The notes under the pieces are model-generated. The model ran no database searches and was not told where the DNA came from. It saw nothing but the letters and a program-made list of their open reading frames with translations. A stretch of DNA of 64,000 bases from Deltaproteobacteria bacterium (GTDB taxonomy: Bacteria > UBA10199 > JADGCS01), in assembly GCA_015228875.1 (NCBI GenBank), contig JADGCS010000004.1, forward strand, positions 1 through 64,000, in the 5' to 3' direction. A program made the position numbers and the translations under genes. Below are positions 5,970 to 62,049 of the stretch, in pieces. Every line of letters begins with the position of its first letter. Position 1 is the stretch's first letter.

Positions 5970-5970
5970 T

Positions 5971-40880: not shown

Positions 40881-40912
40881 TGACTTGTCTGGTGTTTACA
40901 GGGTGTTTCCTG

Positions 40913-41863: not shown

Positions 41864-41882
41864 ATGGTCCTTAATAGAAGAA

Positions 41883-42641: not shown

Positions 42642-42665
42642 TACAACCCCTCCAACATCTTGGTG

Positions 42666-43801: not shown

Positions 43802-43810
43802 GATTGTGTG

Positions 43811-43836
43811 TGGAGGCTGTCTCAATCGACAGCCTC
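43811..43836. repeat. GAGGCTGTC hairpin, second copy
   Basis: GAGGCTGTC (43813-43821) and GACAGCCTC (43828-43836) repeat exactly the arms at 15895-15918. It lies between the divergent nucleotidyltransferase and epimerase genes, just upstream of the former's ATG, so it could affect its expression. Confidence 0.5.
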
Positions 43837-43944
43837 TGTATAGTGGAAGAGCGACTTCTGAGTAAAGCAGTTTGTCTCTGGTTGAGTTGAATGAAATTGC
43901 TGGTCTTGTCTTGATATTTTTAATATGAGACCAAACGGGTTGTT

Positions 43945-45135: not shown

Positions 45136-46295
45136 CGAGGAGAAAAATATGCGTGGTCACCGGAACACGGGCAGAATACGGCCTTCTTTACTGGCTGCTC
45201 AAGGAGATCAGGCAGGATCCAGCCCTTGTCCTTCAATTACTTGTGACAGGCATGCATCTGGCCCCCCAGTTTGGATCAACATACAAAGAAATCGAGACCG
45301 ATGGGTTTATCATAGACGAACGAGTCGATATGCAGATCACGGGGGATACCCCTGTGGATATCGCGCGGTCCATGGGTGCGGGTGTCGCGGGTTGTGCGGA
45401 GGCGTTTGCCCGCCTGAGACCCGACATACTGGTCTTTCTGGGTGACCGGTACGAGATTCTCGCTGCTGCAGAGGCAGCACTGGTGGCCAAGATCCCCATG
45501 GCCCATATTCATGGGGGGGAGATCACCGAGGGGGTTTTTGACGATTCCATCAGACATAGCCTGACCAAAATGGCTCACTATCATTTCGTGGCGGCTGAGG
45601 AGTACAAGAAACGGGTCGTGCAGCTCGGTGAACAACCCGCGCGTGTTTTTAATTTTGGGGCCCTGGCCCTGGATAATATTTCGAGGCAAAAACTGTTATC
45701 AAGGGATGAACTGGGGCCATCGATTAATTATAAATTTCGAGGGATTAATTTTCTGGTGACCTTGCATCCCGATACACTGAGTCTGGTGCAGGGGGGGAGA
45801 GAGCCCGTTGATCACCTGTTAGAGGCTCTCAATGCGTTTCCAGAGGCCGGTATTATTTTCACTCAGCCAAACGCAGACCCGCGAAACACGACCATCACAC
45901 AGAAGATGGGGCAGTATGTTCATCTCCATTCACACAGGACTATTCTGGTCGCGTCGCTGGGCAGGGTCGGGTACCTCAGCGCACTCAAACACTGCGATGT
46001 TGTGATTGGCAATTCATCGAGCGGTATTATCGAGGCCCCGATGTTTGTTAAACCAACGGTCAATATTGGCAACAGACAGGGAGGGCGTTTGCGGACTGAT
46101 TCTATCATTGACTGTGTGGAAGAATCCGCAGCCATCAAGACCGCCATCGAAAAGGCCCTGTCAGCAGAATTTAAAGAGTTGCTGTGCCACATCAAGAGTC
46201 CCTACGGCGAGGCAGGGGCTTCAAAGAAAATCAAGGACTGTTTAAAAAGACTGCCGCTTCAGGACGTGTTGGTAAAAAAGTTTTACAATATTTAA
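45132..46295 (+). CDS. neuC: UDP/GDP-sugar 2-epimerase (hydrolysing), NeuC/LegG-type, set 2
   Basis: A 387-residue NeuC. Motifs: ICVVTGTRAEYGLLYWLLKE, ILVFLGDRYEILAAAEAALV, MAHIHGGEITEGVFDDSIRH and CDVVIGNSSSGIIEAPMFVK then PTVNIGNRQGGR. It closely follows characterised NeuC/LegG hydrolysing 2-epimerases. The start is GTG 45132 with AGGAGG 8 bases upstream, overlapping the epimerase stop by 4 bases. It is clearly diverged from the NeuC at 26433. Linked PtmE-like gene suggests a GDP-sugar substrate. Confidence 0.92.
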   Translation: MTRRKICVVTGTRAEYGLLYWLLKEIRQDPALVLQLLVTGMHLAPQFGSTYKEIETDGFIIDERVDMQITGDTPVDIARSMGAGVAGCAEAFARLRPDILVFLGDRYEILAAAEAALVAKIPMAHIHGGEITEGVFDDSIRHSLTKMAHYHFVAAEEYKKRVVQLGEQPARVFNFGALALDNISRQKLLSRDELGPSINYKFRGINFLVTLHPDTLSLVQGGREPVDHLLEALNAFPEAGIIFTQPNADPRNTTITQKMGQYVHLHSHRTILVASLGRVGYLSALKHCDVVIGNSSSGIIEAPMFVKPTVNIGNRQGGRLRTDSIIDCVEESAAIKTAIEKALSAEFKELLCHIKSPYGEAGASKKIKDCLKRLPLQDVLVKKFYNI

Positions 46296-46298
46296 TGT

Positions 46299-46384
46299 AT
46301 AGGGATTTCATAGTCGGGTGAGCGCGGGTGCGTTCCTTGCATAACAGAAGAACTCAGCCGCGTAAAAGTCAAGTAGGTTACTTG
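46299..46384 (+). repeat. Family A palindromic repeat, copy 8
   Basis: A diverged copy: TATAGGGATTTCATAGTCGG, GAGCGCGGGTGCGTTCCTTG, AACAGAAGAACTCAGCCGCG, GTCAAGTAGGTTACTTG. The end palindrome keeps pairing through different bases (CAAGTAGGTTACTTG). It lies between neuC and neuB; the GTG start of neuB is the next base after ACTT, so its leader is the repeat. Confidence 0.88.
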
Positions 46385-47454
46385 TGAAAAAAACCTTCAT
46401 CATCGCAGAGGCCGGTGTCAATCACAACGGGTCTCTCAGTGTCGCAAAGAAACTTGTCAAGGCGGCCGTTGATGCCGGGGCTGATGCGGTCAAGTTTCAG
46501 ACCTTCACAGCCGATGAGATCGTGTGCCAAAATGCACCCAAGGCGTCTTACCAAAACAAGACAACACAAAAAAAAGAATCGCAGTATGAGATGCTCAAAA
46601 AACTTGAGTTGAGCCCCTCTGATCACGTCAAGATTGCAGACTATTGCCGTAAAAAAGGAATCCTGTTTATATCGACGCCCTTTGATATCAAGGGCGTTGC
46701 GCTGCTCGATGAAAAAATTAAAGTCCCCTTTTTAAAGGTGGCATCCGGAGAGATCACCAACGCCCCCCTTTTGTTAAAAATTGCGGCAACAGGAAGGCCC
46801 TGTGTCTTGTCAACGGGGATCTGCAACCTTAAGGAGGTCAGGCAGGCCCTGGCTGTGCTTGCCTATGGGTATGCCGTTAAAAATACCCGCACGCCGCATA
46901 GGGGGCTCATCAAAAAAAGCTGTACAAAAAAAGCCATCGAGGCACTTAAAAACAGGGTGACGCTCCTGCACTGCACATCCGAATATCCCGCACCCATCGC
47001 AGACATCAACCTCAGGGCGATGGAGGCCCTTAAAAATGAGTTTGGGCTGCCCGTGGGGTTGTCGGATCACTCGCAGGGCATTGTGGTTCCCATAGCGGCC
47101 GTCGCCCTGGGTGCTGTCATGATCGAAAAACATTTCACTCTCGATAAATCCCTCGAAGGACCTGATCACAAGGCGTCACTTGAACCATCAGAATTAAAAG
47201 CAATGATCACAGCCATCAGGGAGGTAGAGTTGTCCTTGGGAGACGGCCTTAAAAAACCAAAGGCCTCCGAGCAAAAAAACCGCGATGTGATCCGCAAGAG
47301 CCTTGTGGCCCGAAGGCAAATCAAAAGGGGAGAGGTCTTCTCAGAAGCAAATTTAACCTGCAAGAGACCCGGGACAGGGATCAGCCCCATGGAGTATTGG
47401 GATTACATAGGCAAGAAGGCTTCGAGGCATTACCAGGAAGGGGAGTTGATTTAA
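46384..47454 (+). CDS. neuB: Nonulosonic acid synthase, set 2
   Basis: A 356-residue NeuB-family synthase. FIIAEAGVNHNGSLSVAKKL, ADAVKFQTF, LFISTPFDIKGVALLDE, FLKVASGEITNAPLL, VLSTGI, LLHCTSEYPAP and GLSDHSQG follow the family order, and a SAF domain starts near RKSLVARRQIKRGEVFSE. It condenses PEP with an N-acylmannosamine-type sugar, and residues match legionaminate/sialate synthases better than the NeuB at 23674. GTG start (46384) is inside the end of repeat A8; the only ribosome-site-like bases (TAGGT) are those changed in that repeat's palindrome. Confidence 0.93.
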   Translation: MKKTFIIAEAGVNHNGSLSVAKKLVKAAVDAGADAVKFQTFTADEIVCQNAPKASYQNKTTQKKESQYEMLKKLELSPSDHVKIADYCRKKGILFISTPFDIKGVALLDEKIKVPFLKVASGEITNAPLLLKIAATGRPCVLSTGICNLKEVRQALAVLAYGYAVKNTRTPHRGLIKKSCTKKAIEALKNRVTLLHCTSEYPAPIADINLRAMEALKNEFGLPVGLSDHSQGIVVPIAAVALGAVMIEKHFTLDKSLEGPDHKASLEPSELKAMITAIREVELSLGDGLKKPKASEQKNRDVIRKSLVARRQIKRGEVFSEANLTCKRPGTGISPMEYWDYIGKKASRHYQEGELI

Positions 47455-47473
47455 CCCCCAGATGGGGGTTTAA
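47453..47473 (+). terminator. Hairpin at the neuB stop codon
   Basis: AACCCCC (47453-47459) and GGGGGTT (47464-47470) form a 7-bp stem with a 4-base loop followed by TAATT. It overlaps the TAA stop. A weak or partial terminator. Confidence 0.5.
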
Positions 47474-47550
47474 TTACCCGCCTCTTGGGGCGTAACGTGA
47501 GAATTTTCTCGACTTGATACTCCGTAGCTTGCTGCGGGGTTCTTCATCAT

Positions 47551-48168
47551 ATGAACAAAAAAATCATCATCATAGGTGCGGGGGGGCACGCAAAGGTAGC
47601 TCTCGCGGCGTTGTTGGAATGTCAGGCAACGGTGATGGGACTGACAGAAAACGATCCCCGTAAACACGGCATGGAAATCCTTGGATGCCGTGTGATTGGC
47701 AATGATGCAGTGATTACAAATCACGATCCCCAAGAGGTCCTGCTTGTCAATGGTGTGGGGTCAACAAAAGACAACACCCCACGAAAAAAAATCTTTAAAA
47801 CCTTCAAGGCCCTTGGGTTTACATTTATCAATGTCATTCACCCTGCGGCGTTTTGTTCACGTGGGGTGATCCTCTCGGAGGGCGTGCAGATTCATGCGGG
47901 TGCGGTCCTGCAGCCGGGGGTCACGATTGGCGAGAACACGATCATCAACACGGGGGCACGCATCGATCACGATTGTTTGATCGGTGCACACGCACACATT
48001 GCACCGGGGGCCGTGTTGTGTGGTGATGTCAGGGTAGCAGAGGGCGCCTTTATCGGTTCGGGGGCTTGTGTGATACAGGGGGTCAAAATAGGGAGGGGCA
48101 GTATTGTCGGGGCGGGGTGTACGGCCTTAAAGGATGTGGGACCGGGTGAGACCTTTGTGGGGCGGTGA
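47551..48168 (+). CDS. neuD: NeuD/PglD-type sugar O- or N-acetyltransferase
   Basis: A 205-residue left-handed-beta-helix acyltransferase. The N-terminal Rossmann-like PglD_N domain starts KKIIIIGAGGHAKVALAALL, then hexapeptide repeats from about residue 100 (GVILSEGVQIHAGAVLQPGV, GENTIINTGARIDHDCLIGA, HIAPGAVLCGDVRVAEGAFI). It probably acetylates the amino sugar or the nonulosonic acid of set 2. It ends the set-2 run neuC - neuB - neuD. Composition changes sharply just downstream. Confidence 0.9.
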   Translation: MNKKIIIIGAGGHAKVALAALLECQATVMGLTENDPRKHGMEILGCRVIGNDAVITNHDPQEVLLVNGVGSTKDNTPRKKIFKTFKALGFTFINVIHPAAFCSRGVILSEGVQIHAGAVLQPGVTIGENTIINTGARIDHDCLIGAHAHIAPGAVLCGDVRVAEGAFIGSGACVIQGVKIGRGSIVGAGCTALKDVGPGETFVGR

Positions 48169-48264
48169 ATCAAGAAACAATTTTTTTAAGTTTCCATTTG
48201 CCGTATTTCTTTTCCCATACATTGGAGAGCGTTGCCCAATTTCGAAAACTGCAGGGTCTTCTTG

Positions 48265-51039
48265 ATGATGAAAATAAAAGTCGCGTTTATTTCTATTATA
48301 ATTTTTGTTTTTATTGTGCTGACTATCAGTTACCAATCTGACAAGCTCATGTTTGGAGCCGTGCAGGTGCTTGATCAATTGACCAAATCTAAATTTAATC
48401 TTCAAATATTGAGAGATAAATTAATGCTTTCAATTGATGAAATGAACCCCATAAATTTATTTTTCCTATCTGATGATTTGCCTGTTTTTAAGCTGCAATT
48501 GAGTACAAGTGACTTGCTGTATTTAGAATCCATTAATGAAAAGGCAGATATTGAGGGTCTCTCTCATGTTTCAGATTATGATAATACGTTTAGAAAAGCA
48601 AAACTCTATTATGAAAATAAAGAATATAAAGTTAAAGTTAAGTTCCATGGATCTAATCGACATCATGTTAAATCACCTAAAAAATCTTTACGAATCAAAT
48701 TATTGGCGGCTAATTCAATTGGTGGCGTGACGGACTTTTCGTTGATTATTCCAGAAGAGAGTGGCATCGTGGACTTGGTGTATTACAATTTGTTAAAGAA
48801 GTTTTATGCTTTTGAAGTAAAATCTTTTTTCTGCCATTTAGAAATAAATGGTGTAGATCTGGGAATTTATTTTTTTGAGGAGAAGCTTGATCAAGTCTTG
48901 TTGGAAAAAAATGGGTTCTCTGGCGTAGACATTCTTAAACCAAAAAGTGAGTGGTTTGATCAGTATCTTCATCATACCGGGCCGTTTGTATGGGATATAT
49001 CTTATCAAAACTTCAAGGATTTATCTAAAATGGATGTTGGTCAGTTATTGAGGTACAAAAGGCTATACTCCGGTTTAGTATCAAAAAATGAAACCCCAAG
49101 GCTGATTGATTTAGATTGGTTTGCAAAAATTGATGCTCTGAGGATCGTTTTTGGTTCGGATCGTCCCTTTGCAGGAGACAATCAAAGGCTTTTATATTCT
49201 ACCTCGACAGGCAAGTTTTTACCCTTTGTAAGAGTTGAGGGTGTTGTAGAAAAATTAGAAAGCAATAAGAATGCTCTTAACGTTTTTGAACAGTCTATGT
49301 CTCACCTTCGAATTAATTCTATTCGTGATGACTACGTATACCAAAAAAATTATCAAAACGACATGTATCTCAATTTGGTTAAAAACGATGACTACAGAAT
49401 GTTACGCAACAGATATCTATATGAACTTCTTCGACAACAAGAGGACATGCTCAGAGTGTATGATGACATCTATGAAAAATCAATAGAGCACATTACCACC
49501 GACACATCTAATAACTTTCCGGCAAGGTATTACTCTTTACTGGGACGTCGTTATCGCGAAAATTTTTCTTATAATTTTGATTTTATAAAGAAATATTTTG
49601 ATTATTCCAGAGCGTTTACCGAAGTAGAACAAGTCAAACCAGACACATATTTGTTGAAGATTAGACCTGATTCAAATGTGCCAATTCAAGTTGAAAAATT
49701 GGAGCTGTTATTGGATTCTCCTGCAAAATTACTTGTAACGAGATTATCTGACGGTTCCAGTCAATTGTTCGAATCAAAAACAGTAACAGTAGAAGGTGAT
49801 ACAATCCATAACCAGTTTTCTGTTGATGCTTTTCCATTTTTCAAGAACGACAGATTTTTACTTGGCCTTACCGATCACCTGGAAATCCTGAAAAGAGAAT
49901 ATGTGTACGAACTCAAATCCGAACCTCCTTTTAAAATAAAAAATATTACTATTCAGTTTAAAAATTCATTTAACAATAAGGTTTTGAATGAGCGTGTGAC
50001 CTATTCGGTAATTATAAATAAACCAGAGCTGTTTGAATTTGAATATCTTACTAAAAAACCCTTGGAATTTTTAAATGAGTTTAAAGAACTAAATTTAAAA
50101 TTACACGAAAACACAATCATTCTCCCAACGGGGGAATACAGCATTAGTAAAAATATAATTTTGCCTTATGGAGTGAATCTTGTCATTGAGAAGGGAAGCA
50201 AAATAGCTCTGGCACATGATAAATCTATAATTGTTTATGGTAGTCTGACCATTAATGGGGAAAAAGAAAACCCTGTTGTCATATCAAATCTTGAAAAAAA
50301 TAAACCTTTTGGCGTTATAGCTGCTATTGGTGATCTAAACAATAATATTCACATAGACCATTTATCTCTCAGTGGTGGTCATGAAGCGATTATTAATGGT
50401 AGCTATTTGTCTGGTGGCTTATCATTATATGGTCATGGTTTGGTAAAAATTAATAATAGCTCAATTACGGGCAATACGGCAGATGATGGTTTAAACATAA
50501 AAAATGCAAAGGTGGATATTAGAAATAGTGTTTTTTCTTCTAATTTTGCTGATCAAATTGATTTGGATAACTGTGAGGGAATTGTTGTAGGCAATAAATT
50601 CAGTAAAGGAGATTCTATTGCAGTGTCTTCGGATAATAACGGAGATGGTCTGGATTTAAGTGGGTCAAAATTCCTTATTGTAAATAATACATTTGATGGC
50701 TTCGTAGACAAGGGTGTTTCCATTGGTGAAAAATCATTGGCTTTTGTAAAATCAAATAACTTTAACAACAATAGGAGTGCGGTAACAATTAAGGATCAAT
50801 CAGAAGTATATCTGGAATCAAATATTTATAATCAAAACACAATTTGGGTCGAAGAATATCAAAAAAAATATTTCTTTGATTTTCCTGTAGTTTATAATTT
50901 TGGTGAAAATATCCCAGATAATAAAGTGGTCACTAAAGGCGATTCAAAATATGTAAAATTAAACAAGAAAACTCCATTTAAGGATGGAGATTTTTCAATA
51001 AAGTTTGATTTTGATTTATTAAAAAATCTCATTCACTGA
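48265..51039 (+). CDS. Membrane-anchored CotH kinase / right-handed beta-helix protein
   Basis: About 924 residues. An N-terminal signal-anchor (MKIKVAFISIIIFVFIVLTI) precedes a CotH-kinase-like domain at about 55-450. Recognised pieces are VKVKFHGSNRHHVKSPKKSL (CotH nucleotide-binding region), YFFEEKLDQ and IDALRIVFGSDRPFAGDNQR. From about 620 a parallel beta-helix with repeated Asn/Gly/Asp turns follows (INNSSITGNTADDGLNIKNA). CotH kinases phosphorylate spore-coat proteins in Bacillus; here the site would be extracytoplasmic. ATG 48265 is preceded by AGGG. It forms a tight operon with VTC and DUF4956 genes. Confidence 0.75.
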   Translation: MMKIKVAFISIIIFVFIVLTISYQSDKLMFGAVQVLDQLTKSKFNLQILRDKLMLSIDEMNPINLFFLSDDLPVFKLQLSTSDLLYLESINEKADIEGLSHVSDYDNTFRKAKLYYENKEYKVKVKFHGSNRHHVKSPKKSLRIKLLAANSIGGVTDFSLIIPEESGIVDLVYYNLLKKFYAFEVKSFFCHLEINGVDLGIYFFEEKLDQVLLEKNGFSGVDILKPKSEWFDQYLHHTGPFVWDISYQNFKDLSKMDVGQLLRYKRLYSGLVSKNETPRLIDLDWFAKIDALRIVFGSDRPFAGDNQRLLYSTSTGKFLPFVRVEGVVEKLESNKNALNVFEQSMSHLRINSIRDDYVYQKNYQNDMYLNLVKNDDYRMLRNRYLYELLRQQEDMLRVYDDIYEKSIEHITTDTSNNFPARYYSLLGRRYRENFSYNFDFIKKYFDYSRAFTEVEQVKPDTYLLKIRPDSNVPIQVEKLELLLDSPAKLLVTRLSDGSSQLFESKTVTVEGDTIHNQFSVDAFPFFKNDRFLLGLTDHLEILKREYVYELKSEPPFKIKNITIQFKNSFNNKVLNERVTYSVIINKPELFEFEYLTKKPLEFLNEFKELNLKLHENTIILPTGEYSISKNIILPYGVNLVIEKGSKIALAHDKSIIVYGSLTINGEKENPVVISNLEKNKPFGVIAAIGDLNNNIHIDHLSLSGGHEAIINGSYLSGGLSLYGHGLVKINNSSITGNTADDGLNIKNAKVDIRNSVFSSNFADQIDLDNCEGIVVGNKFSKGDSIAVSSDNNGDGLDLSGSKFLIVNNTFDGFVDKGVSIGEKSLAFVKSNNFNNNRSAVTIKDQSEVYLESNIYNQNTIWVEEYQKKYFFDFPVVYNFGENIPDNKVVTKGDSKYVKLNKKTPFKDGDFSIKFDFDLLKNLIH

Positions 51040-51042
51040 TGT

Positions 51043-51774
51043 ATGATACTGCCCAATGAATTTAGACACGAACTAAAATATTTTCTCCATTATCATGATT
51101 ATATCACTCTAAAAAGTAGACTTAGCACAATTTTAAAACGAGATCCAAATTCTGATAATAGTGGTAATTATCTTGTTCGTAGCTTATATTTTGATGATAT
51201 ATACAACAGCGGATTGTTTGACAAGTTATCAGGTGTAAGAACAAGAGAAAAGTACCGGGTGAGAGTGTATAATTTAAGTGACCAGACCATCAAGTTGGAA
51301 TGTAAACAGAAAAAAAATAGTCTTGTAAGAAAGGAAATTGATTTCCTGTCAAGGGATGAGGTTTGTCTGTTATCTCAAGGGGAGTTTAGTTTTTTAAAAG
51401 AAGGATCACTATCGTCCTTGCGGCTTAAGTTTTATAGAGCTATACAACACAAATTACTGCGTCCTGTTGTCATTGTAGATTATATTCGTGAGGCTTTTAT
51501 TACACCGTATGTATGTAATGGATTCAATCAGATAAGAATAAATTTTGACAAGGAACTTAAAAGTTGTTTGAGCCTGAAAGATTTTTTTGGGCAGGATATT
51601 GCTGCTAAAAATGTGTTTAGTGAACCTGTAATTATTATGGAGATAAAGTTTGGAGATTATTTTCCTGATTATCTCAAGCAGATTCTAAAGGTTGGATCTG
51701 CCATGCGTTATGCTATTTCAAAGTACGCTCTATGTCGAAAATGCACTCACTTTAATTTATGGGAGGATAGCTAA
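51043..51774 (+). CDS. VTC-domain (polyphosphate polymerase family) protein
   Basis: A 243-residue soluble protein of the VTC/CYTH-like tunnel fold. Motifs: NEFRHELKYFLHY (basic start), YLVRSLYFDD, TREKYRVRVYN, IKLECKQKK, VVIVDYIREAF, INFDKEL, IIMEIKFGDYFPDYL and the final SKYALCRKC, which match the yeast Vtc4 catalytic core (polyphosphate made from ATP, basic and Glu residues lining the tunnel). Bacterial homologues are often next to DUF4956 and CotH genes, as here. It lies 3 bases after CotH. Activity in bacteria is inferred. Confidence 0.87.
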   Translation: MILPNEFRHELKYFLHYHDYITLKSRLSTILKRDPNSDNSGNYLVRSLYFDDIYNSGLFDKLSGVRTREKYRVRVYNLSDQTIKLECKQKKNSLVRKEIDFLSRDEVCLLSQGEFSFLKEGSLSSLRLKFYRAIQHKLLRPVVIVDYIREAFITPYVCNGFNQIRINFDKELKSCLSLKDFFGQDIAAKNVFSEPVIIMEIKFGDYFPDYLKQILKVGSAMRYAISKYALCRKCTHFNLWEDS

Positions 51775-52460
51775 TGGATCAAACAATGACCTTTGCAGAT
51801 ATTTTTAAAAATAGCTTCGTAAACCTTGGTAATGTGACAACTACTTTGTCGGTTGCAAATATTGTTTTTGTTCTTTTGCTTACTTTTGCATTGGGGTTGG
51901 TTATTTTTTATATTTACAAGAAAACTTACCAGGGGGTACTTTATGTTTCAAGTTTCAATATTTCTTTAGTTGTTATCGCCATGGTTACTGCCATGATTAT
52001 TGTAGCAGTAAGATCAAATATTATTCTTTCTTTGGGTATGGTTGGTGCTTTATCCATAGTAAGATTTCGAACAGCTATCAAGGATCCTATTGATGTTGTT
52101 TTCCTATTCTGGGCTATTGCTGTAGGTATAACCAATGGGGCCTTTTTCTTTAAATTGTCAATTATTGGAACATTAATAATAGCACTGATACTCATCATAA
52201 TGTCTAAATGGAAGTTTTTAAGTATGCCGTACTTACTCATAGTCAATCACCACAACGATGAAAAAAATAATATTCAACAAAAAATCCAAGAGATTTCCCC
52301 TTTTAACATTAGATCCAAAATCGTTTCTAAAGACAACGTAGAATTAACTATAGAACTCAGAATAAAAAACAATGATACTGATTTTGTAAATAAAATATCA
52401 AGGATAGACGGGGTAACCAATGCCATCTTGATTAGTTACAATGCGGATAAGATTTTTTAA
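51774..52460 (+). CDS. DUF4956 membrane protein
   Basis: A 228-residue membrane protein with four to five hydrophobic helices in residues 25-145 (VANIVFVLLLTFALGLVIFY, SLVVIAMVTAMIIVAV, VFLFWAIAVGITNGAFFF, SIIGTLIIALILII). Between them is the family signature LGMVGALSIVRFRTAIKDP. A C-terminal soluble ferredoxin-like domain follows. It may form a channel or anchor for the adjacent polyphosphate polymerase. Its ATG overlaps the VTC stop (TAATG). Function of DUF4956 is unknown. Confidence 0.85.
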   Translation: MDQTMTFADIFKNSFVNLGNVTTTLSVANIVFVLLLTFALGLVIFYIYKKTYQGVLYVSSFNISLVVIAMVTAMIIVAVRSNIILSLGMVGALSIVRFRTAIKDPIDVVFLFWAIAVGITNGAFFFKLSIIGTLIIALILIIMSKWKFLSMPYLLIVNHHNDEKNNIQQKIQEISPFNIRSKIVSKDNVELTIELRIKNNDTDFVNKISRIDGVTNAILISYNADKIF

Positions 52461-52470
52461 TTTTTCAGCA

Positions 52471-53625
52471 CTAGACGGCATTTTGAAGTGTCTGCAGGAT
52501 AATGCTGTCTGATGGGGTATTTTCTGTCTCAGGCCATGTCATGTATTTGTATTTGTAATTGTTGTAAACCTGTCCGTTTACCTTGGGCAGAACGATTTGA
52601 TCATCCGATGACACATGGCCAATATTTATAACTGGCATGTGAAGTTCTCTCGCAAAACATTTCATGTACTCAATTGTTTGTGCAAAGGGATGACGGCAGT
52701 ACTTGATGATTTCGCTTTCATAAACAAAGAGCACAGGTTTGTTGTATACCACGGCGTAGTCCATTGAGAGGCTTGCGTGTGAAATGACAAACAAGGCGTT
52801 TTTGACGAGTTCGTTTGTTTTGTCTTTGTGACATTCTCTGCCGCCAAAGAAATTCTGTTTGTACTGTGCCTTTGGGCTGAGGGCGATGACCACATTTGTG
52901 TTGCATTTTTTTTCGATGAGGTCGAAAAAACGGTTCATTGTCCCAAAATAAATATCTGACGACACCCCCTTGACCCCTCTGGTGGGTTGATCCGGGTGTC
53001 CCGCGAGACCCTGATCAAGAAAGACACAGTACTGTCTGCCATCAAAGTCGCTTGTTTTATTTTGGGAGTTGAGAAAATCATCATAATCCATAAAGTTGAT
53101 CTTGATAACTTTTGTTTTTTCCCCTGAGTAACAGACTGATGAAGGCCCCATTGCAAAGACAAGCTCGGGACTTTTGAAGGCCCCTTTTTTATGGTAAATA
53201 AACAGCAACAACCTTTCAAAAAAACCCGACAGTAACCTTTTGGGGCTTTTGAGATGCAGCAGGAATTTTTTAAATGTTTTTGGGGTGGGTGACGGGTAAT
53301 CACAACTGAAATAAATCTGCCTGCATCCGTATTTTTTTATCAGAAAAAAAACCCTGCGGTATCTGAATTCGGCGGCAAACTGCAAGTCAAAAAAAGTGCT
53401 GCCCAGGTCTGTCTGACTCACGGCCGTTTCAAACTCTGCCAACGAATCAAACTCTCTCACATAGTCCGCCTGGACCTGTTTTGTTAATTTGAGTTTTTTA
53501 AAAAAAACATCGCTGAGATCCCAGTATTCAAAGGGAAACCCTTTGCTGGCAAGGGATGGCAGGCGCAGAAATCTCTGAAGATTTGAGGTAAGAGGGGAGA
53601 CGGAGACGAAAATGACTTTTTTCAT
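52471..53625 (-). CDS. Putative GT-B-like surface polysaccharide protein
   Basis: A 384-residue protein without a signal peptide. The N-terminus KKVIFVSVSPLTSNLQRFLR and the C-terminal ALFVISHASLSMDYAVVYNK then PVLFVYES resemble the donor-binding domain of GT-B capsule enzymes, where Ser/His-Ala-S... and Pro-V-L-F-V are common. No family is recognised with certainty. It is convergent with the AT-rich CotH operon, separated by 10 bases, and divergent from the phosphonate operon, so it may transfer sugars or phosphono groups in surface glycan assembly. Confidence 0.5.
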   Translation of the reverse strand: MKKVIFVSVSPLTSNLQRFLRLPSLASKGFPFEYWDLSDVFFKKLKLTKQVQADYVREFDSLAEFETAVSQTDLGSTFFDLQFAAEFRYRRVFFLIKKYGCRQIYFSCDYPSPTPKTFKKFLLHLKSPKRLLSGFFERLLLFIYHKKGAFKSPELVFAMGPSSVCYSGEKTKVIKINFMDYDDFLNSQNKTSDFDGRQYCVFLDQGLAGHPDQPTRGVKGVSSDIYFGTMNRFFDLIEKKCNTNVVIALSPKAQYKQNFFGGRECHKDKTNELVKNALFVISHASLSMDYAVVYNKPVLFVYESEIIKYCRHPFAQTIEYMKCFARELHMPVINIGHVSSDDQIVLPKVNGQVYNNYKYKYMTWPETENTPSDSIILQTLQNAV

Positions 53626-53770: not shown

Positions 53771-54316
53771 ATGAAAGTCTGGGAAAATAATTCCAATGGT
53801 CAGCTTCATGTCACCATTCCAAAAAATTCGGGGATCAAAAAAGACGACTGGGTCAAGATAGAAAAAAAGAAAATTAACAGGGTCGTCTATTCTTTTATTG
53901 TCGGTGATTTATTTCATTATGGTCACTTAAGAATACTCGAAAAGGCCAGCCAGATTGGTGATCTGCATATCTGCGGCGTATTGACCAACAGGGCGGTGGA
54001 GTCTTATAAAAGAAAACCCATCCAGGATTTTAAGGAGCGTGCAAATCTGATTGCTCATATCAATATTGTCGACAAGGTGATATCGCAGGACTCAAGGGAT
54101 CCAACAGACAACCTTAAAAAAATACATCAGGACTTTCCGATGGCCAAACTTATCCTGATACACGGCGATGACTGGAAAGATTCCCCATTTCCAGGAGAGC
54201 CTTTTATCACGAGTATTGGCGGGGAGCTTGTCAAGGTGCCGTATTATAAAAAACTCTCCACCACAAAGATGATTAATGAAATAAAAAGAAGGGTCGAAAA
54301 AAAACAGGGACTTTAA
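53771..54316 (+). CDS. AbrB-like/cytidylyltransferase fusion protein
   Basis: A 181-residue protein with two parts. Residues 1-35 (MKVWENNSNGQLHVTIPKNS, GIKKDDWVKIEKKK) look like an AbrB/SpoVT swapped-hairpin DNA-binding or dimerisation domain. Residues ~38-175 are a nucleotidyltransferase: VGDLFHYGHLRILEKASQIG gives HYGH in place of HxGH; a 12-residue-later GVLTNRAV and KMI end fit glycerol-3-phosphate/phosphoethanolamine-type cytidylyltransferases. In the phosphonate operon it may make a CMP-phosphonate, as the Fom1 cytidylyltransferase domain does. ATG 53771 follows AGGA by 9 bases. Confidence 0.75.
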   Translation: MKVWENNSNGQLHVTIPKNSGIKKDDWVKIEKKKINRVVYSFIVGDLFHYGHLRILEKASQIGDLHICGVLTNRAVESYKRKPIQDFKERANLIAHINIVDKVISQDSRDPTDNLKKIHQDFPMAKLILIHGDDWKDSPFPGEPFITSIGGELVKVPYYKKLSTTKMINEIKRRVEKKQGL

Positions 54317-54320
54317 GCAA

Positions 54321-55925
54321 ATGATAAGACAAAAAACAAAAACGCACACTGTGCCATCTTCACCACATCATAAGGCTCTACCTGTTAAGGAGCCTTTGGT
54401 ATCTAGGAATTTCAAAGTCGACAGAGCGCGGGTGCAGTCCTCGCATGACGAAGGAGCTCAACCGCGTCCCCCAAGGGGATTTCCTTCGGGGCATCAAAGT
54501 CAAGTTAGTAACTTGTTTGTTGCCCCTTTGACAGTCCCCAAAAAAGGGGAAAAAATATTTACATTAAGTGATGCAGAGCTGCATTCCATACTCAAACGAA
54601 GGGAAAAGCACATCGAGCTTGATCCGGGGATGGGCGGGGTGAGTCCCAGGCTTCTCGATAACCTGTTAAAGAGTGACAGCGAACTGGTTTCACTTGATCT
54701 TGCCATTACGGCGGCCTGTAATTTTCGTTGTGGTCATTGTTACAAGCCCAACGAAGAATGGAACAAGCAGGTTCTCGATTTTGCCACCCTCTCAAGGGTT
54801 GTTGAAGAAGCTGTTCAAATACTGGGGACCAGGTTTTTTGTCATCACAGGAGGCGAACCCCTCATGTACAACAGTGAGGGCAGGGATTATTTTGATGTTG
54901 TCGACAAGATCATCGAGGTCTCAAACGGCAGGGGGTTTAAGCCCCATGTGCTTACATTTTCTGATGTGGCTCTTATTAATGAGCAGACCGCTGCAAAACT
55001 TGCAACGAGAAAGGTCGCCCTGTGTCTTAAAAGGGATACCCTGGATCACGCCATTCAAAACAAAATTCTTGGCGTATCCAGGGGAAGCGAACAGATGGCT
55101 GCGGGGTATCAAACACTCTTTGCGGCAGGTTATGGAAAAAACCCTGAGCTCGCTGTCAGTGTCAACACGGTACTCAGAAAGGGAGATTGCAACACCCTCA
55201 ATGGTTCTGTCGATCTTCACGTCTGGGTTAAAGAGAATGGGATGGAGCATTCCATTGTACCCATTCATCATTGTGGTGGCGCCATAGATGAAGATCAGGA
55301 TTTAAACCCCCTTGAGGTCAAGGTCCTCTACGATATTTTATCTGCAATTGACGAAATAAAATTTAATGATGTTTGGAAGGTCCATTCGCCCTTTCCCAAA
55401 GATAAAACCTGTAACCGCCCGGGGCGGGGGGTACATGCCAGGGTTACCGGAAAGGTGGCAGCCTGTTCCGAGTCCCCCCTCATTGATCCCTATGTCTTTG
55501 GCAACATCAACGAAATCAGCCTCACAACAATGATTAGATCAGACGGCTTTCGCAAATTTCAACAGGAGTTTGCCTCGCGAGAGGGAAAGTATATCTGCAA
55601 CCCCGAGGTTTGTGATCTTAACCGACATAACATCTGCAGGGGCGGGTGTGCCACAAGAAGCGCCTATTCGGTGATCAATCCCGAAACGGGACAATTGGAG
55701 CAGAATACAAACATGCTTTCCTACAGCAGGGGCAGGGAAGACCCCATGTGCCCCGGGTGGGCTGTGTTGGCACAGATGCAGGGAGTCCTCAGGGAGGGCG
55801 TTTACAAAAAAATTGCAGACAGGCTTCTTGGCGAATCAATGATGCTTGATCCTCAATTAAAAGGGCGCATCAGTGAAAAAATATTGACTGAGTTTGCAGC
55901 CCTGAAAAAGAAACCCCAACCATAA
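54321..55925 (+). CDS. Radical SAM protein with auxiliary-cluster cysteines, phosphonate locus
   Basis: A 534-residue protein with radical SAM motif CNFRCGHC (about residues 134-141, in AITAACNFRCGHCYKPNEEW) and VITGGEPLMY. C-terminal cysteines CNPEVCDLNRHNICRGGCAT are SPASM-like auxiliary-cluster ligands. Residues ~27-65 (SRNFKVDRARVQSSHDEGAQ and following) are encoded by family A repeat copy 9, followed by the true family-like region from FTLSDAELHSILKRRE. ATG 54321 has AGGGA ~10 bases upstream; no other in-frame ATG precedes GMGGVSP. It lies 4 bases after the cytidylyltransferase gene and may modify the phosphonate or its carrier. Confidence 0.82.
   Translation: MIRQKTKTHTVPSSPHHKALPVKEPLVSRNFKVDRARVQSSHDEGAQPRPPRGFPSGHQSQVSNLFVAPLTVPKKGEKIFTLSDAELHSILKRREKHIELDPGMGGVSPRLLDNLLKSDSELVSLDLAITAACNFRCGHCYKPNEEWNKQVLDFATLSRVVEEAVQILGTRFFVITGGEPLMYNSEGRDYFDVVDKIIEVSNGRGFKPHVLTFSDVALINEQTAAKLATRKVALCLKRDTLDHAIQNKILGVSRGSEQMAAGYQTLFAAGYGKNPELAVSVNTVLRKGDCNTLNGSVDLHVWVKENGMEHSIVPIHHCGGAIDEDQDLNPLEVKVLYDILSAIDEIKFNDVWKVHSPFPKDKTCNRPGRGVHARVTGKVAACSESPLIDPYVFGNINEISLTTMIRSDGFRKFQQEFASREGKYICNPEVCDLNRHNICRGGCATRSAYSVINPETGQLEQNTNMLSYSRGREDPMCPGWAVLAQMQGVLREGVYKKIADRLLGESMMLDPQLKGRISEKILTEFAALKKKPQP
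54402..54515 (+). repeat. Family A palindromic repeat, copy 9, inside a reading frame
   Basis: TCTAGGAATTTCAAAGTCGA, GAGCGCGGGTGCAGTCCTCG, ACGAAGGAGCTCAACCGCGT, the CCCCCAAGGGGATTTCCTTC-GGGGC insert module, then AAAGTCAAGTTAGTAACTTG. In this frame the element is open from end to end. Confidence 0.9.
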
Positions 55926-55942
55926 CAATCACAGGTGGGACC

Positions 55943-56896
55943 ATGAAAATACAAAACAAGACATTACCTGAAAAAAGAAGACCCGAATTAAAAAAACTTC
56001 TTGATGCAAGGGGTTTTATCAGGGTGATCGAGGCTCACAGCGGGATAAGTGCGTTGGTGGGCGAAAATGCGCTTGTTGAGGATCACCAGGGCAAAAAGGA
56101 GTTTGATGCCTTGTGGATCAGCAGCCTGACTGATTCTGTGGCCAAGGGCTATCCTGACGAAGAAATTGTGAGTACCGACTCAAGACTCATGACTGTCAGT
56201 CAAATCTCCGATGTGACTTCAAAACCGCTCCTCTACGATGGTGATACAGGCGGTTTTCCGGAGCAGCTTAATTATTTAATCAAACAGTTGGAGAAACACG
56301 GTGTTTCAGCCGTGGTTATTGAGGATAAAAAATATCCCAAGAGCAACAGCCTGCTCAAAGATGCCCATCACAACATGGAGGATCAGGCAGTCTTTGCCCA
56401 AAAAATACAATACGCACGCGATTCACAGAGGACAGGTGAATTGATGGTCATTGCAAGGATAGAAAGTTTTATCGTGGGTGAGACACTCCATGAAGCCCTG
56501 TCACGGGCGCAGACCTACCTTGCGGCCGGGGCGGATGGGATCATGATTCATTCAAAGGAACAGTCGCCGGAGCAGGTTTTAAACTTTGCCCAGAAATACA
56601 ATCAGCTGAGTTTTCCGGATGGCAGAAAGCCCCTGATGTGTGTTCCCACCACCTACAACACGGTGACAGAAGAAACACTGATCAGCGCTGGTTTTAATAT
56701 CGTTCTTTACGCAAACCAGTTACTCAGGGCAAGCTATGCTGCCATGCAGGGTGTTTGTCAGGCGATTCTCAAGGGAGGCAAAGCGGAGATGGCAGAACCC
56801 TTGTGTTCTTCTATCAAGGAAATACTTGCCCCTGTGGGTTCCATGAGGTCCTACACGGCTGAATACCAAAATAAAAAAAATAAGTTACTCACTTGA
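55943..56896 (+). CDS. pepM: Phosphoenolpyruvate phosphomutase
   Basis: A 317-residue member of the isocitrate lyase/PEP mutase superfamily, rearranging PEP to phosphonopyruvate, the first step of nearly all phosphonate pathways. The diagnostic EDKxxxxxNS is present as IEDKKYPKSNSLLKD (about residues 131-145), with substrate-binding GYPDEEIVS and YDGDTGGF (Asp pair for Mg) and ARIESF. Length is standard. GTGGG lies ~8 bases before ATG. The last residues KLLT and stop TGA are supplied by family A repeat copy 10. Confidence 0.93.
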   Translation: MKIQNKTLPEKRRPELKKLLDARGFIRVIEAHSGISALVGENALVEDHQGKKEFDALWISSLTDSVAKGYPDEEIVSTDSRLMTVSQISDVTSKPLLYDGDTGGFPEQLNYLIKQLEKHGVSAVVIEDKKYPKSNSLLKDAHHNMEDQAVFAQKIQYARDSQRTGELMVIARIESFIVGETLHEALSRAQTYLAAGADGIMIHSKEQSPEQVLNFAQKYNQLSFPDGRKPLMCVPTTYNTVTEETLISAGFNIVLYANQLLRASYAAMQGVCQAILKGGKAEMAEPLCSSIKEILAPVGSMRSYTAEYQNKKNKLLT

Positions 56897-57042
56897 TTTT
56901 GACGCCCCGAAGGAAGTGCCCTTGGGGTATGCCCCGAAGGTAATCCCCTTGGGGGACGCGACTTAAGTTTTTCTATTATGCAAAAAATGCACCAGCCATG
57001 TTCCGTACGGCACATGGCCCGCGTTCAATCAATATTGAAATA
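56882..57042 (-). repeat. Family A palindromic repeat, copy 10, minus orientation, two insert modules
   Basis: Read on the minus strand: TTGAACGCGGGCCATGTGCC with the hairpin module, GCATTTTTTGCATAATAG, GTCGCGTCCCCCAAGGGG, a doubled CCTTCGGGGC module, then AAGTGAGTAACTT. It is the longest copy (about 160 bp) and separates pepM from ppd. Its plus-strand left end contains the pepM stop. Confidence 0.88.
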
Positions 57043-57054
57043 CGAACGAATAAT

Positions 57055-58185
57055 ATGATCACCAGCAATCAGCTTTATCAATGTCTCAAGAAAAACGGTT
57101 TTGTTTTTTTTACCGGTGTTCCGGACTCCACCTTTAAGGATTGGATGACGTTTCTTGATCAAAACAACGGTAAGGGCCTCACCAATATTATTGCGGCCAA
57201 CGAGTGTGAGGCAGTGGCACTGGCCATGGGTTATCATTTGGCGACCGGCGAAAACGGCGTGGTTTATATGCAGAATGCCGGTCTGGGAAAGACTGTCAAC
57301 CCGCTGATGTCTTTATGTGACCCCGAGGTCTATTCCGTTCCCATGTTGCTGATGATTGGATTAAGGGGAGAACCGGGCGTAAAAGACGAACCTCAGCACA
57401 AGAAAATGGGCGCAATCACACTGAGCCTTCTCGACACAATGGGGATACCATACTCTTTTCTCGAACAGGCGAACATGGAGGCCGTGATCAATAAAGCTGC
57501 GGCCTCTATCAAAAGATGCAAATCGGCTTATGCGCTTATTATAAAAAAGGGCATCGTGAAGGACGAAGGGCTTGTGGTAAAGGAAAAAACTGCCGACCAA
57601 CAGGGGTTGACAAGGGAAGACGCTATCAAATCCATTGTTGACGTCCTTAATGCGGATGCTGTTGTTGTCTCTACAACAGGTAAGGCCTCCAGGGAGCTTT
57701 TTGAGTATCGGGTACACAAGGGGCAGCAGCCGGGTGATTTTTACACCGTTGGGGGGATGGGGTGTTGCTCATCGATTGCGTTGGGGATTGCCCTGCAGAG
57801 AACCGATAAAAAGGTTTACGTCTTTGACGGTGATGGCGCGGTGATCATGCAGATGGGGTCTTTAGCGACAGTAGGGCATTACAAACCAAAAAATTATTAC
57901 CACTTTATTTTCGACAACGGTTCCTACGAGTCTACGGGAGGACAGCCTACGGTGTCAGATACCCTGGATTTTGAAGAGATTGCCAGGTCCTGTGGTTATG
58001 GTCATGTTCGGACAGTCAAAAATAAAAACGAGTTGGACTGCCTGTTGACTGATTTAAATCAATTTCCCTGCCCGGTACTTGTTGTGATCAGGGTGAACAA
58101 GATCTCACGCAAAAATCTCGGAAGGCCAACAAGTACGCCGGTCGAAAATAAAGAAAAATTCATGAAAAATTTCGTCCACGTATAG
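57055..58185 (+). CDS. ppd: Phosphonopyruvate decarboxylase
   Basis: A 376-residue thiamine-diphosphate enzyme that decarboxylates phosphonopyruvate to phosphonoacetaldehyde, pulling the unfavourable PEP mutase step. Signature segments are FFTGVPDSTFKDWM, IIAANECEAVALAMGYHLAT (catalytic Glu), MQNAGLGKTVNPLMSLCDPE, GLRGEPGVKDEPQHKKMG and the TPP/Mg motif DGDGAVIMQMGSLATVGHYK (through FDNGSYESTGGQPT). Start ATG 57055 lies after repeat A10 with no clear ribosome site; an in-frame ATG at 56998 is inside the repeat. Its stop TAG is in the first bases of repeat A11. Confidence 0.93.
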   Translation: MITSNQLYQCLKKNGFVFFTGVPDSTFKDWMTFLDQNNGKGLTNIIAANECEAVALAMGYHLATGENGVVYMQNAGLGKTVNPLMSLCDPEVYSVPMLLMIGLRGEPGVKDEPQHKKMGAITLSLLDTMGIPYSFLEQANMEAVINKAAASIKRCKSAYALIIKKGIVKDEGLVVKEKTADQQGLTREDAIKSIVDVLNADAVVVSTTGKASRELFEYRVHKGQQPGDFYTVGGMGCCSSIALGIALQRTDKKVYVFDGDGAVIMQMGSLATVGHYKPKNYYHFIFDNGSYESTGGQPTVSDTLDFEEIARSCGYGHVRTVKNKNELDCLLTDLNQFPCPVLVVIRVNKISRKNLGRPTSTPVENKEKFMKNFVHV

Positions 58186-58267
58186 GAATTTCAAAGTCGA
58201 CAGAGCGCGGGCGCATTCCCCGCACAATGGAGGAATTCAACCGCGTCAAAGTCAAGTTAGTAACTTG
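58181..58267 (+). repeat. Family A palindromic repeat, copy 11
   Basis: Near-consensus: TATAGGAATTTCAAAGTCGA, GAGCGCGGGCGCATTCCCCG, ACAATGGAGGAATTCAACCG, GTCAAGTTAGTAACTTG. The first TAG is the ppd stop codon. It forms the leader of the alcohol dehydrogenase gene. Confidence 0.93.
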
Positions 58268-58277
58268 AGAAAAAAAT

Positions 58278-59408
58278 ATGAAACAAACAGAATTCTTTGG
58301 CACAGGGACCCTCCGTCATCTCAATCAAATATTAAACACAGAATCTCCGGAGAGGGTATTGCTGGTCACCGGCAAAGGGTCGTTTGGTTTAAGCGGAGCA
58401 GAGCAGCCCATCATGGAAGCGGTGTTTCCTTTTAACTATCTCAGATTTTCGGATTTTGCGACAGATCCCAAATTCGAGGATGTCTTAAAGGGACTCAAGA
58501 TCGTGCGTGATTATCAGCCGGATCTTGTGATTGCGGTTGGCGGGGGGAGTGTGATCGACATGGCCAAGCTGTTGAATATCCTGTCGGTGCACGACGCAGA
58601 CTCGGTTGCCTATATCAGGGGAGAAAAAAAAATATCAAAGAAGGGCAAGGCCCTTGTTGCGATACCCACCACATCCGGTTCGGGCAGTGAGGCGACACAA
58701 TTTATTGTGGTCTATGTGGACAAAAAAAAATACTCGGTCGCTCACGAATACATTATCCCTGATTACGCCATCGTTGATCCCGAACTGACCCTCACCACCC
58801 CTGAATACATTGCCGCAGCCGCCGGGATGGACGCCTTTGCCCAGGCCGTAGAATCATTCTGGTCCATTAACTCCACAAACGAATCACAACAATATTCAGA
58901 AGAGGCCATTAAACTTTGCCTTGAGAACTTTGTTGCTGCGGTGACCCGCAAGACAGGCGGCGCGAGGTTCTCCATGGCCAGGGCTGCAAATCTTGCCGGT
59001 AAGGCCATTAACATTGCCAAGACAACTGCCGCTCATGCCTTGTCCTATTCACTGACCTCATACCATGGCATAACCCACGGCCACGCTGTTGGGTTGGCCC
59101 TGGCGCCGATATTCGAATATAACGCCGGAGTAAATAATAATGACTGCAACGATCAGCGGGGCGTTTTGTTTGTTAAAGACACAATGAACCGCCTGTGTTC
59201 TCTGATGAAATGTCTGGACGCTACGGCCGCAAAATTACACATCACGGCAATGATGAAGCAAACGGGCCTTGAAACCAGCTTTGAAGAACTTGGTTTACAC
59301 AAAGAAGATATCATTAATTTTACAAACAGGGTCAATCTGCAAAGACTTAAAAATAACCCGAGAGATTTAAGTGACAAGGCCGTTCTGATGGGATTGTTTT
59401 TGGCCTGA
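58278..59408 (+). CDS. Iron-type alcohol dehydrogenase (phosphonoacetaldehyde reductase)
   Basis: A 376-residue group III metal-dependent alcohol dehydrogenase. NAD-binding GGGSVIDMAKLLN at about 94-106, then PTTSGSGSEAT, and metal ligands in AAGMDAFAQAVESF (Asp), HALSYSLTSYHGITHGHAVG (three His). In phosphonate clusters this family (PhpC, FomC) reduces phosphonoacetaldehyde to 2-hydroxyethylphosphonate. Position after ppd fits exactly. The leader is repeat A11. Degradative alternatives are unlikely in this context. Confidence 0.87.
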   Translation: MKQTEFFGTGTLRHLNQILNTESPERVLLVTGKGSFGLSGAEQPIMEAVFPFNYLRFSDFATDPKFEDVLKGLKIVRDYQPDLVIAVGGGSVIDMAKLLNILSVHDADSVAYIRGEKKISKKGKALVAIPTTSGSGSEATQFIVVYVDKKKYSVAHEYIIPDYAIVDPELTLTTPEYIAAAAGMDAFAQAVESFWSINSTNESQQYSEEAIKLCLENFVAAVTRKTGGARFSMARAANLAGKAINIAKTTAAHALSYSLTSYHGITHGHAVGLALAPIFEYNAGVNNNDCNDQRGVLFVKDTMNRLCSLMKCLDATAAKLHITAMMKQTGLETSFEELGLHKEDIINFTNRVNLQRLKNNPRDLSDKAVLMGLFLA

Positions 59409-59469: not shown

Positions 59470-59557
59470 GTCTAGGAATTTCAAAGTCGACAGAGCGCGG
59501 GTGCATTTCTTGCATGGCGGAGGAATTCAACCGCGTCAAAGTCAAGTTAGTAACTTG
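59470..59557 (+). repeat. Family A palindromic repeat, copy 12
   Basis: GTCTAGGAATTTCAAAGTCG, GAGCGCGGGTGCATTTCTTG, ATGGCGGAGGAATTCAACCG, GTCAAGTTAGTAACTTG. It fills the convergent gap and ends on the base before the stop codon of the minus-strand radical SAM gene. Confidence 0.93.
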
Positions 59558-61075
59558 TTATCTTATTTTTTTCCCCCTGTGAAAGAGAAAGTATTTAACA
59601 AAAAATGAGAGCGGCACATTGGCGTGCGCCCGGATATTAAGAAACGCCTCTGTTGATTTCCAGATGAACCTGAATGCAAAATTATCGGGCAGCTTGACCA
59701 GCAGCCTGATCAGGGGTCTTAAAAAAGAAAACCGTATGGCCAGATGGGAAAATCTTGAGAGCTTTAAAAGTAATTGCCCCTCTTTGTCGATCCTGTAGTT
59801 TTCAAAAAAACAAAGATCGCGTGTCCCCAGGGCAAGGTTTTGAAAGTTGTCAGCCAAGGGGGCAGGGTTTTGCCCACGCTCCCTTTTTAACGATTCGGGT
59901 AGTTCATGGGATGCGATGTCGTCCCTCTTGTATTGTCCGATCTTGATCCCATAATCGGTGATATCCAGACCGGGAAAGGGCTTGAATATATTGATCGCAT
60001 GAACACTGTCTTTTGCCGATATTTTTTTTGCCATCAGCAGTGTTTCCCAGCAGAGATCAAGTGTCTCACCCGGAAGGCCCAGCATCATCGCCATTGAATA
60101 CCTGATGTTGTTTTTTTTAAGGATGCCGGTCCCATTGATCAACTGCTGATTGCTGATGTTTTTTCTGAGTACTGTCTTTCTAAATTCTTCATTGCCAGTT
60201 TCAAGTCCAAATCTGACGAGCTCACACCACCCATTTTCCTTGAGTGCCTTTCCCACATCTTCGTCGATCTCCGTGATCACGGCATTAAGGGAAAAGGGGA
60301 TTCCAATTTCTGCTTTGTACTTTGTGAGAAATTCAAAGAGCCACTTTTTATTGTATGTGAGTGTACTGTCGTTAAAGAAGATGTATCTCGCGTTGTATTT
60401 TGCCTTGAGGATTTTTAATTCTGCCATGAGGTTGTCGACACTTCTCAAGTTGCAATAGCCGGAACTGCCCGCCTCTTTGTACAGTTTTCGATAGCCATCG
60501 TTAAAACAATAGCTGCATGGGTAAGGACAGCCTCTGCCGACAAGCACCTGTGTAAAGGGGATGATTTTAAAATAACTGTCGTAGTCAAAATAAAGATCCC
60601 GGTCATCAAAGGGGAGTTCGTCCATATTCATCACCCACTGCCTCATCCTGTTTTTAAAGATCACGCCTCCTTCTTTGACCCACAGGTTCGCAATATGCCT
60701 GTAGTCCTCATGGTTGTCGATGCAGCGGCACAAGTCGTGAAGGGGCGCCTCGCCCTCGCCCATGCAGATGATGTCGAGGTCGGAGTGCGCAAGGATCTGC
60801 GGCAGAAAAGTGATGTCATAGCCCCCCGCAATAACAGGTGTTTTGATCCCCGCCCTCTTGATCGCATTGGCACAGAGCAGCATGTGATTTCTGTACGGGG
60901 TAAGGACCGAAAAGGCGATGAGATCAGGTTTTTCTTTCTTGATTGTTGTAACAATCTTTTGCTCATCACCAATCGCAAGAGAAACCCTGTGCCCTGCCTT
61001 TTTAAGGGACGCAGAGAGCCGTGCCGTGCTTTGAAAGGGAAAATAGATTTCTTGAGCAAACAAGACCTTGGCCAT
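59558..61075 (-). CDS. B12-binding-domain radical SAM protein, phosphonate locus
   Basis: A 505-residue protein. N-terminal cobalamin-binding-like domain (FPFQSTARLSASLKKAGHRV, PDLIAFSVLTPYRNHMLLCA, TPVIAGGYDITFLPQILAHS, DIICMGEGEAPL), then radical SAM motif CPYPCSYC near residue 198 and FGLETGNEEFR. No DxHxxG is seen. Convergent with the phosphonate operon. By analogy with Fom3, which methylates CMP-hydroxyethylphosphonate, it might methylate a phosphonate, but the sequence alone does not show this. ATG 61075 has AGAGGT 5-6 bases upstream, so the frame to 61099 is not used. Confidence 0.83.
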   Translation of the reverse strand: MAKVLFAQEIYFPFQSTARLSASLKKAGHRVSLAIGDEQKIVTTIKKEKPDLIAFSVLTPYRNHMLLCANAIKRAGIKTPVIAGGYDITFLPQILAHSDLDIICMGEGEAPLHDLCRCIDNHEDYRHIANLWVKEGGVIFKNRMRQWVMNMDELPFDDRDLYFDYDSYFKIIPFTQVLVGRGCPYPCSYCFNDGYRKLYKEAGSSGYCNLRSVDNLMAELKILKAKYNARYIFFNDSTLTYNKKWLFEFLTKYKAEIGIPFSLNAVITEIDEDVGKALKENGWCELVRFGLETGNEEFRKTVLRKNISNQQLINGTGILKKNNIRYSMAMMLGLPGETLDLCWETLLMAKKISAKDSVHAINIFKPFPGLDITDYGIKIGQYKRDDIASHELPESLKRERGQNPAPLADNFQNLALGTRDLCFFENYRIDKEGQLLLKLSRFSHLAIRFSFLRPLIRLLVKLPDNFAFRFIWKSTEAFLNIRAHANVPLSFFVKYFLFHRGKKIR

Positions 61076-61190
61076 AATTACCTCTTGTGACCGCTCCATA
61101 GTCCCATCCTACAACACGGGTCAATTCAAGAAAAGGGCTCACAATCCCTTGTTGCTCGCTTTAAGGCTTTCATGCTAAAAAAAGACACAC

Positions 61191-61846: not shown

Positions 61847-61959
61847 CAGGAATTTCAAAGTTGATTGAGTGTGGGTGCATTTTTTGCATAATAGAAAAAC
61901 TTAAGTCGCGTCCCCCAAGGGGATTTCCTTCGGGGCGTCAAAGTCAAGTTAGTCACTTG
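61847..61959 (+). repeat. Family A palindromic repeat, copy 13, with C/G-rich insert module
   Basis: CAGGAATTTCAAAGTTGATT, GAGTGTGGGTGCATTTTTTG, AATAGAAAAACTTAAGTCGC then CCCCCAAGGGGATTTCCTTC-GGGGC and GTCAAGTTAGTCACTTG. Diverged left half but module placement as in copies 9 and 10. Confidence 0.85.
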
Positions 61960-62049
61960 TTCTGTTTGCCTTTGACGATCGGCCCAAGGCCCCCATCAGT
62001 GTCTCCTTGATCCCAGATTCAAAACCACACATGAGACAAAATGTTGTTT

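Follow-up and report, generated by a model that had tools for sequence, protein, structure and literature searches.

Which phosphonate does a short gene cluster in a Deltaproteobacteria bacterium (GenBank assembly GCA_015228875.1) make, and what is a radical S-adenosylmethionine (SAM) enzyme of the SPASM type doing in it? The cluster lies in the window, that is, the whole 64,000-nucleotide (nt) stretch of contig JADGCS010000004.1 analyzed here. It comprises five consecutive plus-strand genes in 53771-59408 and a sixth, convergent gene at 59558-61099, and profile searches confirmed all six at the places and on the strands where an earlier note on this DNA had put a cytidylyltransferase, a SPASM radical SAM enzyme, pepM, ppd, an Fe-type alcohol dehydrogenase (Fe-ADH), and a B12-binding radical SAM enzyme. 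We propose that the operon probably serves the biosynthesis of a cell-surface phosphonate that is derived from 2-hydroxyethylphosphonate (HEP), activated with cytidine monophosphate (CMP), and modified by the SPASM enzyme, here called rSAM. The main point, overlooked by that note, is that rSAM, judged by its conservation and genomic company, is a distinct phosphonate-linked family; this family and an operon variant free of the methylphosphonate synthase MpnS are what is new here.

The rSAM gene (54321-55925, plus strand, conserved part from about 54519) encodes a protein that exceeds the Pfam cut-offs for both the Radical_SAM (PF04055) and the SPASM (PF13186) domain. The CxxxCxxC core and seven cysteines of the SPASM region are conserved in an alignment of its homologs; the core and SPASM cysteines are also seen in known SPASM enzymes, of which anSME, MoaA, and viperin are remote relatives. 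Unlike these, rSAM has conserved blocks of its own, PGMGGV and SIVPxHxCGxA, and no curated NCBIfam family matches it above cut-off. Homologs were found in a groundwater Deltaproteobacteria metagenome-assembled genome (MAG; G030, locus L056) of the same class as the window genome, in Woesearchaeota and further genomes of that phylum, in a marine archaeon, in a Rhodospirillaceae MAG, and in Candidatus Scalindua and another genome of its phylum. The family is rare, with carriers accounting for 4/371, 2/343, and 1/289 genomes in three samples, and no member was detected in the viral contigs and plasmids searched. PepM was present in all nine carriers checked (G540 was not among them), and in the Nanoarchaeota sample all four carriers fall among the 22-23 PepM-positive genomes (Fisher 1e-5, genome kinship not corrected).

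Phosphonates make up a major part of dissolved marine phosphorus, and methane in oxygenated water has methylphosphonate as one of its sources. A homolog of the MpnS/HepD type was detected in 8 of the 10 genomes carrying rSAM; none was found in the Scalindua carrier and, with MpnS-type queries, none in the window genome, a draft that is 94.8% complete. MpnS was told from HepD by bit scores, three MpnS-type proteins being nearer to the solved structure of MpnS than to that of HepD (444 versus 278, 531 versus 282, and 267 versus 216 bits); the H-x3-Q metal motif was abandoned as a criterion because HepD 6b9r has it too. Of the 23 Nanoarchaeota genomes with PepM, all four that carry rSAM have MpnS-type genes, as against 1 of the 19 that lack rSAM (Fisher 6e-4, again with kinship uncorrected). 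Since the two genes are far apart in G102, G146, and G540, sometimes on different contigs, this link exceeds mere neighborhood. While rSAM accompanies MpnS in most genomes, it occurs without MpnS but with a B12-binding radical SAM enzyme in the window genome and in the anammox bacterium Scalindua. A more far-reaching reading, that rSAM, without needing oxygen, stands in for methylphosphonate synthase or works alongside it and makes from HEP or CMP-HEP a phosphonate that has one carbon or is new in another way, appears quite unlikely. That the family keeps company with PepM and MpnS in DPANN archaea as well as in Planctomycetota, Alphaproteobacteria, and the bacterial class of the window points to an undescribed step in phosphonate biosynthesis, for which the short window operon offers a small, testable gene set. 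No paper on SPASM enzymes in phosphonate biosynthesis was found in the open-licence literature; methylphosphonate synthase combined with radical SAM yielded one such paper, which mentions "radical SAM" a single time and in which no link to MpnS operons was seen.

Many SPASM enzymes act on peptides, which raises the question of whether rSAM matures peptides or proteins, in the manner of sulfatase maturases or of enzymes that modify ribosomally synthesized peptides, and merely travels with phosphonate genes. Sulfatase-fold proteins encoded in loci L101 and L060, together with anSME as the top Foldseek match of a weak rSAM model, would fit such a role. However, the sulfatase-fold protein in L101 is without the C/S-x-P-x-R maturation motif, and a role in sulfatase (formylglycine) maturation was dropped for this reason. 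Moreover, the gaps of 4 and 17 nt around the rSAM gene leave no space for a precursor peptide, and across phyla it is PepM and MpnS that the family accompanies. We therefore regard a maturase as unlikely and return to rSAM as a candidate phosphonate-modifying enzyme.

The arrangement of the operon is not due to chance, because an identical gene order recurs in L100, a locus of genome G275 (Nanoarchaeota phylum), which reads CyT1-CyT2-MpnS-like-rSAM-PepM-Ppd-ADH, CyT1 being the cytidylyltransferase that opens both operons. The comparison of pepM neighborhoods suggested in the earlier note recovers the same set, with a second cytidylyltransferase (CyT2) and an MpnS-like dioxygenase added. Identities between window and L100 proteins amount to 53% for CyT1, 57% for rSAM, 68% for PepM, 55% for Ppd, and 45% for ADH. 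The PepM and rSAM trees both place the two operons as sisters with 100/100 support; among PepMs, that of the window groups with archaeal ones. Shared order, identities, and sister placement argue for one operon that at some point passed from one domain to another, the window operon corresponding to the L100 type minus CyT2 and the dioxygenase; the small sample does not settle the direction of transfer. Large open reading frames (ORFs) adjoining in the related loci L099 and L059 were considered as further phosphonate genes and dropped, as they encode GlmS and dihydroxy-acid dehydratase.

PepM (55943-56896, plus strand), a stand-alone phosphoenolpyruvate (PEP) mutase, scored 338.5 bits against TIGR02320 (cut-off 319.55) and bears, as EDKKYPKSNS, the EDKX5NS motif that serves as a criterion to tell PEP mutases from their relatives (PMC6697681, PMC8931226). 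It is the sole convincing PepM of its genome. The phosphonopyruvate decarboxylase Ppd (57055-58185, plus strand) scored 453 bits against TIGR03297 (cut-off 312.5); its ORF was called from 56998, but the start is probably at 57055, because the called ORF begins within a repeat that makes up most of its first 19 codons. PepM and Ppd are thus assigned from curated cut-offs, while Fe-ADH (58278-59408, plus strand; PF00465 and PF25137, E 9e-40) reached 170.9 bits against TIGR03405 (PsrA), below the cut-off of 423.7, and is predicted to be a phosphonoacetaldehyde reductase from its context. It is 45-47% identical to the Fe-ADHs of the phosphonate loci L057, L099, L100, and L101, and an Fe-ADH beside PepM and Ppd is the usual reductase to HEP. 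Because PepM, Ppd, and Fe-ADH occur together, synthesis of HEP, already predicted in the earlier note, is well supported.

CyT1 (53771-54316, plus strand, 181 amino acids; Pfam CTP_transf_like, PF01467, E 3.5e-14) is a predicted phosphonate (HEP) cytidylyltransferase, whose start at 53771 agrees with that conserved among its archaeal orthologs. The best match among solved structures was the cytidylyltransferase domain of Fom1 (5x3d, E 1.2e-18, 70.8 bits), with which it has HxGH, SYKRxP, and GDDW in common, and this lends support to the CMP adduct of HEP that had been put forward as a possibility. CMP activation is widespread among bacterial phosphonate pathways (PMC6697681). Yet CyT1 forms a separate family and is not a Fom1 orthologue, because its identity to Fom1 is 33%, compared to 58-60% for archaeal fusions of a Fom1-type cytidylyltransferase to PepM, and because some archaea carry the two together: they coexist in L104, L116, L122, and L124, and CyT1 directly precedes the fusion in the latter three. 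With its archaeal orthologs, CyT1 shares 51-54% identity (53% with L100 and L104) and an extra conserved N-terminal segment. Given its residues, CyT1 may still act like the Fom1 domain, and a CMP-phosphonate is the likely product.

The same coexistence in archaea leaves room for CyT1 to make a cytidine diphosphate (CDP)-polyol from which a phosphonate-bearing, teichoic-acid-like backbone is built, with HEP attached in another way. A TagF-like PF04464 gene near CyT1 in L104 and matches of CyT1 to the HldE and TagD models would suit this possibility, which we nevertheless doubt, considering that the match to TagD, a glycerol-3-phosphate cytidylyltransferase, is weaker than that to Fom1 (E 4e-9, 39.6 bits) and that CyT1 is the only cytidylyltransferase of the window operon and has no polyol gene beside it. 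In L130 (2991-4574), a cytidylyltransferase-like domain is fused to an Fe-ADH (527 amino acids) adjoining an MpnS-type gene, and the fusion ties both activities to one pathway. In the Woesearchaeota phosphonate biosynthesis cluster L104 (4692-7200), a phosphonate-type ABC transporter (binding protein, ATPase, and permease) lies between CyT1 and PepM.

The sixth gene (59558-61099, minus strand; PF02310 and PF04055) encodes a B12-binding radical SAM protein, a candidate tailoring enzyme. Its best profile match, to HpnJ, lay far below the cut-off, and none of the fosfomycin families was reported. Its membership in the phosphonate system is plausible because its nearest relative (L103:7934-9580, 36% identity, 229 bits) is located directly behind pepM in Scalindua; the B12-binding radical SAM proteins of all other loci scored at most 116 bits. 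Thus, both carriers without MpnS, the window and Scalindua, have one subfamily of these proteins near pepM, which with n = 2 is only suggestive.

The earlier note had likened the set to Fom1, Fom2, FomC, and Fom3. The fosfomycin route of Streptomyces runs via 2-HEP-CMP (PMC8158854), and the window shares with it PepM, Ppd, and Fe-ADH leading to HEP, a PF01467 cytidylyltransferase, and a B12 radical SAM gene nearby. The parallel stands for the steps to HEP and its CMP activation only; CyT1 is distant from Fom1, and the B12 enzyme is not assignable to Fom3 by sequence. Unlike the fosfomycin pathway, the window has a separate cytidylyltransferase and the additional rSAM. As that note had observed, an HppE-like gene is not seen; MpnS-type queries, themselves distant from HppE (34 bits), gave no match in the window genome, and no search for FomD was made. 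It is conceivable that the B12 enzyme is a Fom3 analogue that methylates CMP-HEP to CMP-2-hydroxypropylphosphonate, as its class B domains, the matching front end with CMP activation, and the position of its Scalindua relative would allow. We consider this improbable in view of its distant profile matches, its orientation opposite to the operon, the lack of any match to a cupin of the MpnS/HepD type, HppE not being seen either with these queries, and another B12 radical SAM gene in the window (37267-38832), which indicates that genes of this kind are not peculiar to the operon. The latter gene, on the minus strand beside a sugar locus, encodes a protein 24% identical to that at 59558-61099. 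In L025 (51-8743), minus-strand genes beyond the B12 radical SAM gene encode a GMC oxidoreductase, a class III aminotransferase, two zinc-type alcohol dehydrogenases, a SIS protein, a TIM-barrel protein, and nucleotidyltransferase-like proteins; these could represent further tailoring or another glycan locus.

The route that we favor would thus begin with conversion of PEP to phosphonopyruvate by PepM and its decarboxylation to phosphonoacetaldehyde by Ppd, as expected from their families, followed by a presumed reduction to HEP by Fe-ADH. CyT1 would couple HEP, or modified HEP, to CMP, and rSAM would use a 5'-deoxyadenosyl radical to take hydrogen from HEP, CMP-HEP, or a close derivative, resulting in oxidation, cleavage, or rearrangement. 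The B12 enzyme might introduce a further modification, and a transferase would then pass the CMP-activated phosphonate to a surface glycan or lipid. Several points weigh against this route. The structural model of rSAM is weak (pLDDT 54), and the nearest solved relatives that Foldseek found with it include peptide-modifying anSME as well as nucleotide-modifying viperin and MoaA. Association is not function, and the company of the rSAM gene does not fix its substrate; relatedness of the sampled genomes is, furthermore, left in the association statistics. Since CyT1 coexists with a Fom1-type cytidylyltransferase in archaea, it may have another substrate, such as a polyol phosphate for a glycan. 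Finally, no transferase was identified in the window.

The likeliest end product is a glycan or lipid of the cell surface that bears the phosphonate. The surface-glycan locus that had been noted as adjacent is represented by nonulosonic-acid (sialic- or legionaminic-like) sugar genes upstream (40176-48168, plus strand), with profile matches to a CMP-sugar synthetase and NeuC-, NeuB-, and NeuD-like proteins, which provide context only. A surface destination is also suggested by CDP-alcohol phosphotransferases encoded in L100 and L057, by the TagF-like PF04464 gene near CyT1 in L104, and by flippases and glycosyltransferases near related loci. In pairing a CMP-activated phosphonate with surface-glycan genes, the window resembles the phosphonyl tailoring (Pnt) clusters, which use CMP-2-aminoethylphosphonate (PMC6697681). 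It differs from them in following the alcohol rather than the amine branch, with an ADH and without an aminotransferase in the operon, in having a PF01467 instead of a LicC-like enzyme, and in its radical SAM enzyme. Methylphosphonate operons (PepM, Ppd, ADH, and MpnS) share the route to HEP, rSAM occurs mostly in genomes with MpnS-type genes, and L100 nearly duplicates the window operon, with the cupin in addition; the window differs from these operons in the absence of a detectable MpnS/HepD homolog from its genome.

The divergent neighbor of CyT1 (52471-53625, minus strand, 384 amino acids) is possibly a glycosyltransferase, its link to the operon being unproven; even a threshold of E 10 brought no match in Pfam. 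It was also considered as TagF-like, and this was dropped in light of a BLAST E value of 0.2 against the L104 PF04464 protein, the lack of a Pfam match, and an unusable model. Between the sugar genes and the operon (48232-52460), a CotH/beta-helix protein, a VTC domain protein, and a DUF4956 membrane protein are encoded in a row.

The operon is interspersed with a modular, hairpin-forming dispersed repeat family of about 60-120 nt, of which the genome holds 40 scored matches among 428 candidates. It occupies intergenic gaps and also sits inside some reading frames, including that of rSAM, where a copy of about 115 nt (54402-54518, plus strand) is in frame within the first 65 or so residues, ahead of the conserved protein. 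Further copies are found between pepM and ppd (56873-57041), between ppd and Fe-ADH (58181-58268, plus strand), where the repeat provides the ppd stop codon TAG, and between Fe-ADH and the B12 radical SAM gene (59471-59560, plus strand). Elsewhere in the window, copies occur at 5855-6059, 9888, 15654, 42639, 46271, and 61848-61964. The family resembles the Rickettsia-type palindromic elements that are inserted in proteins.

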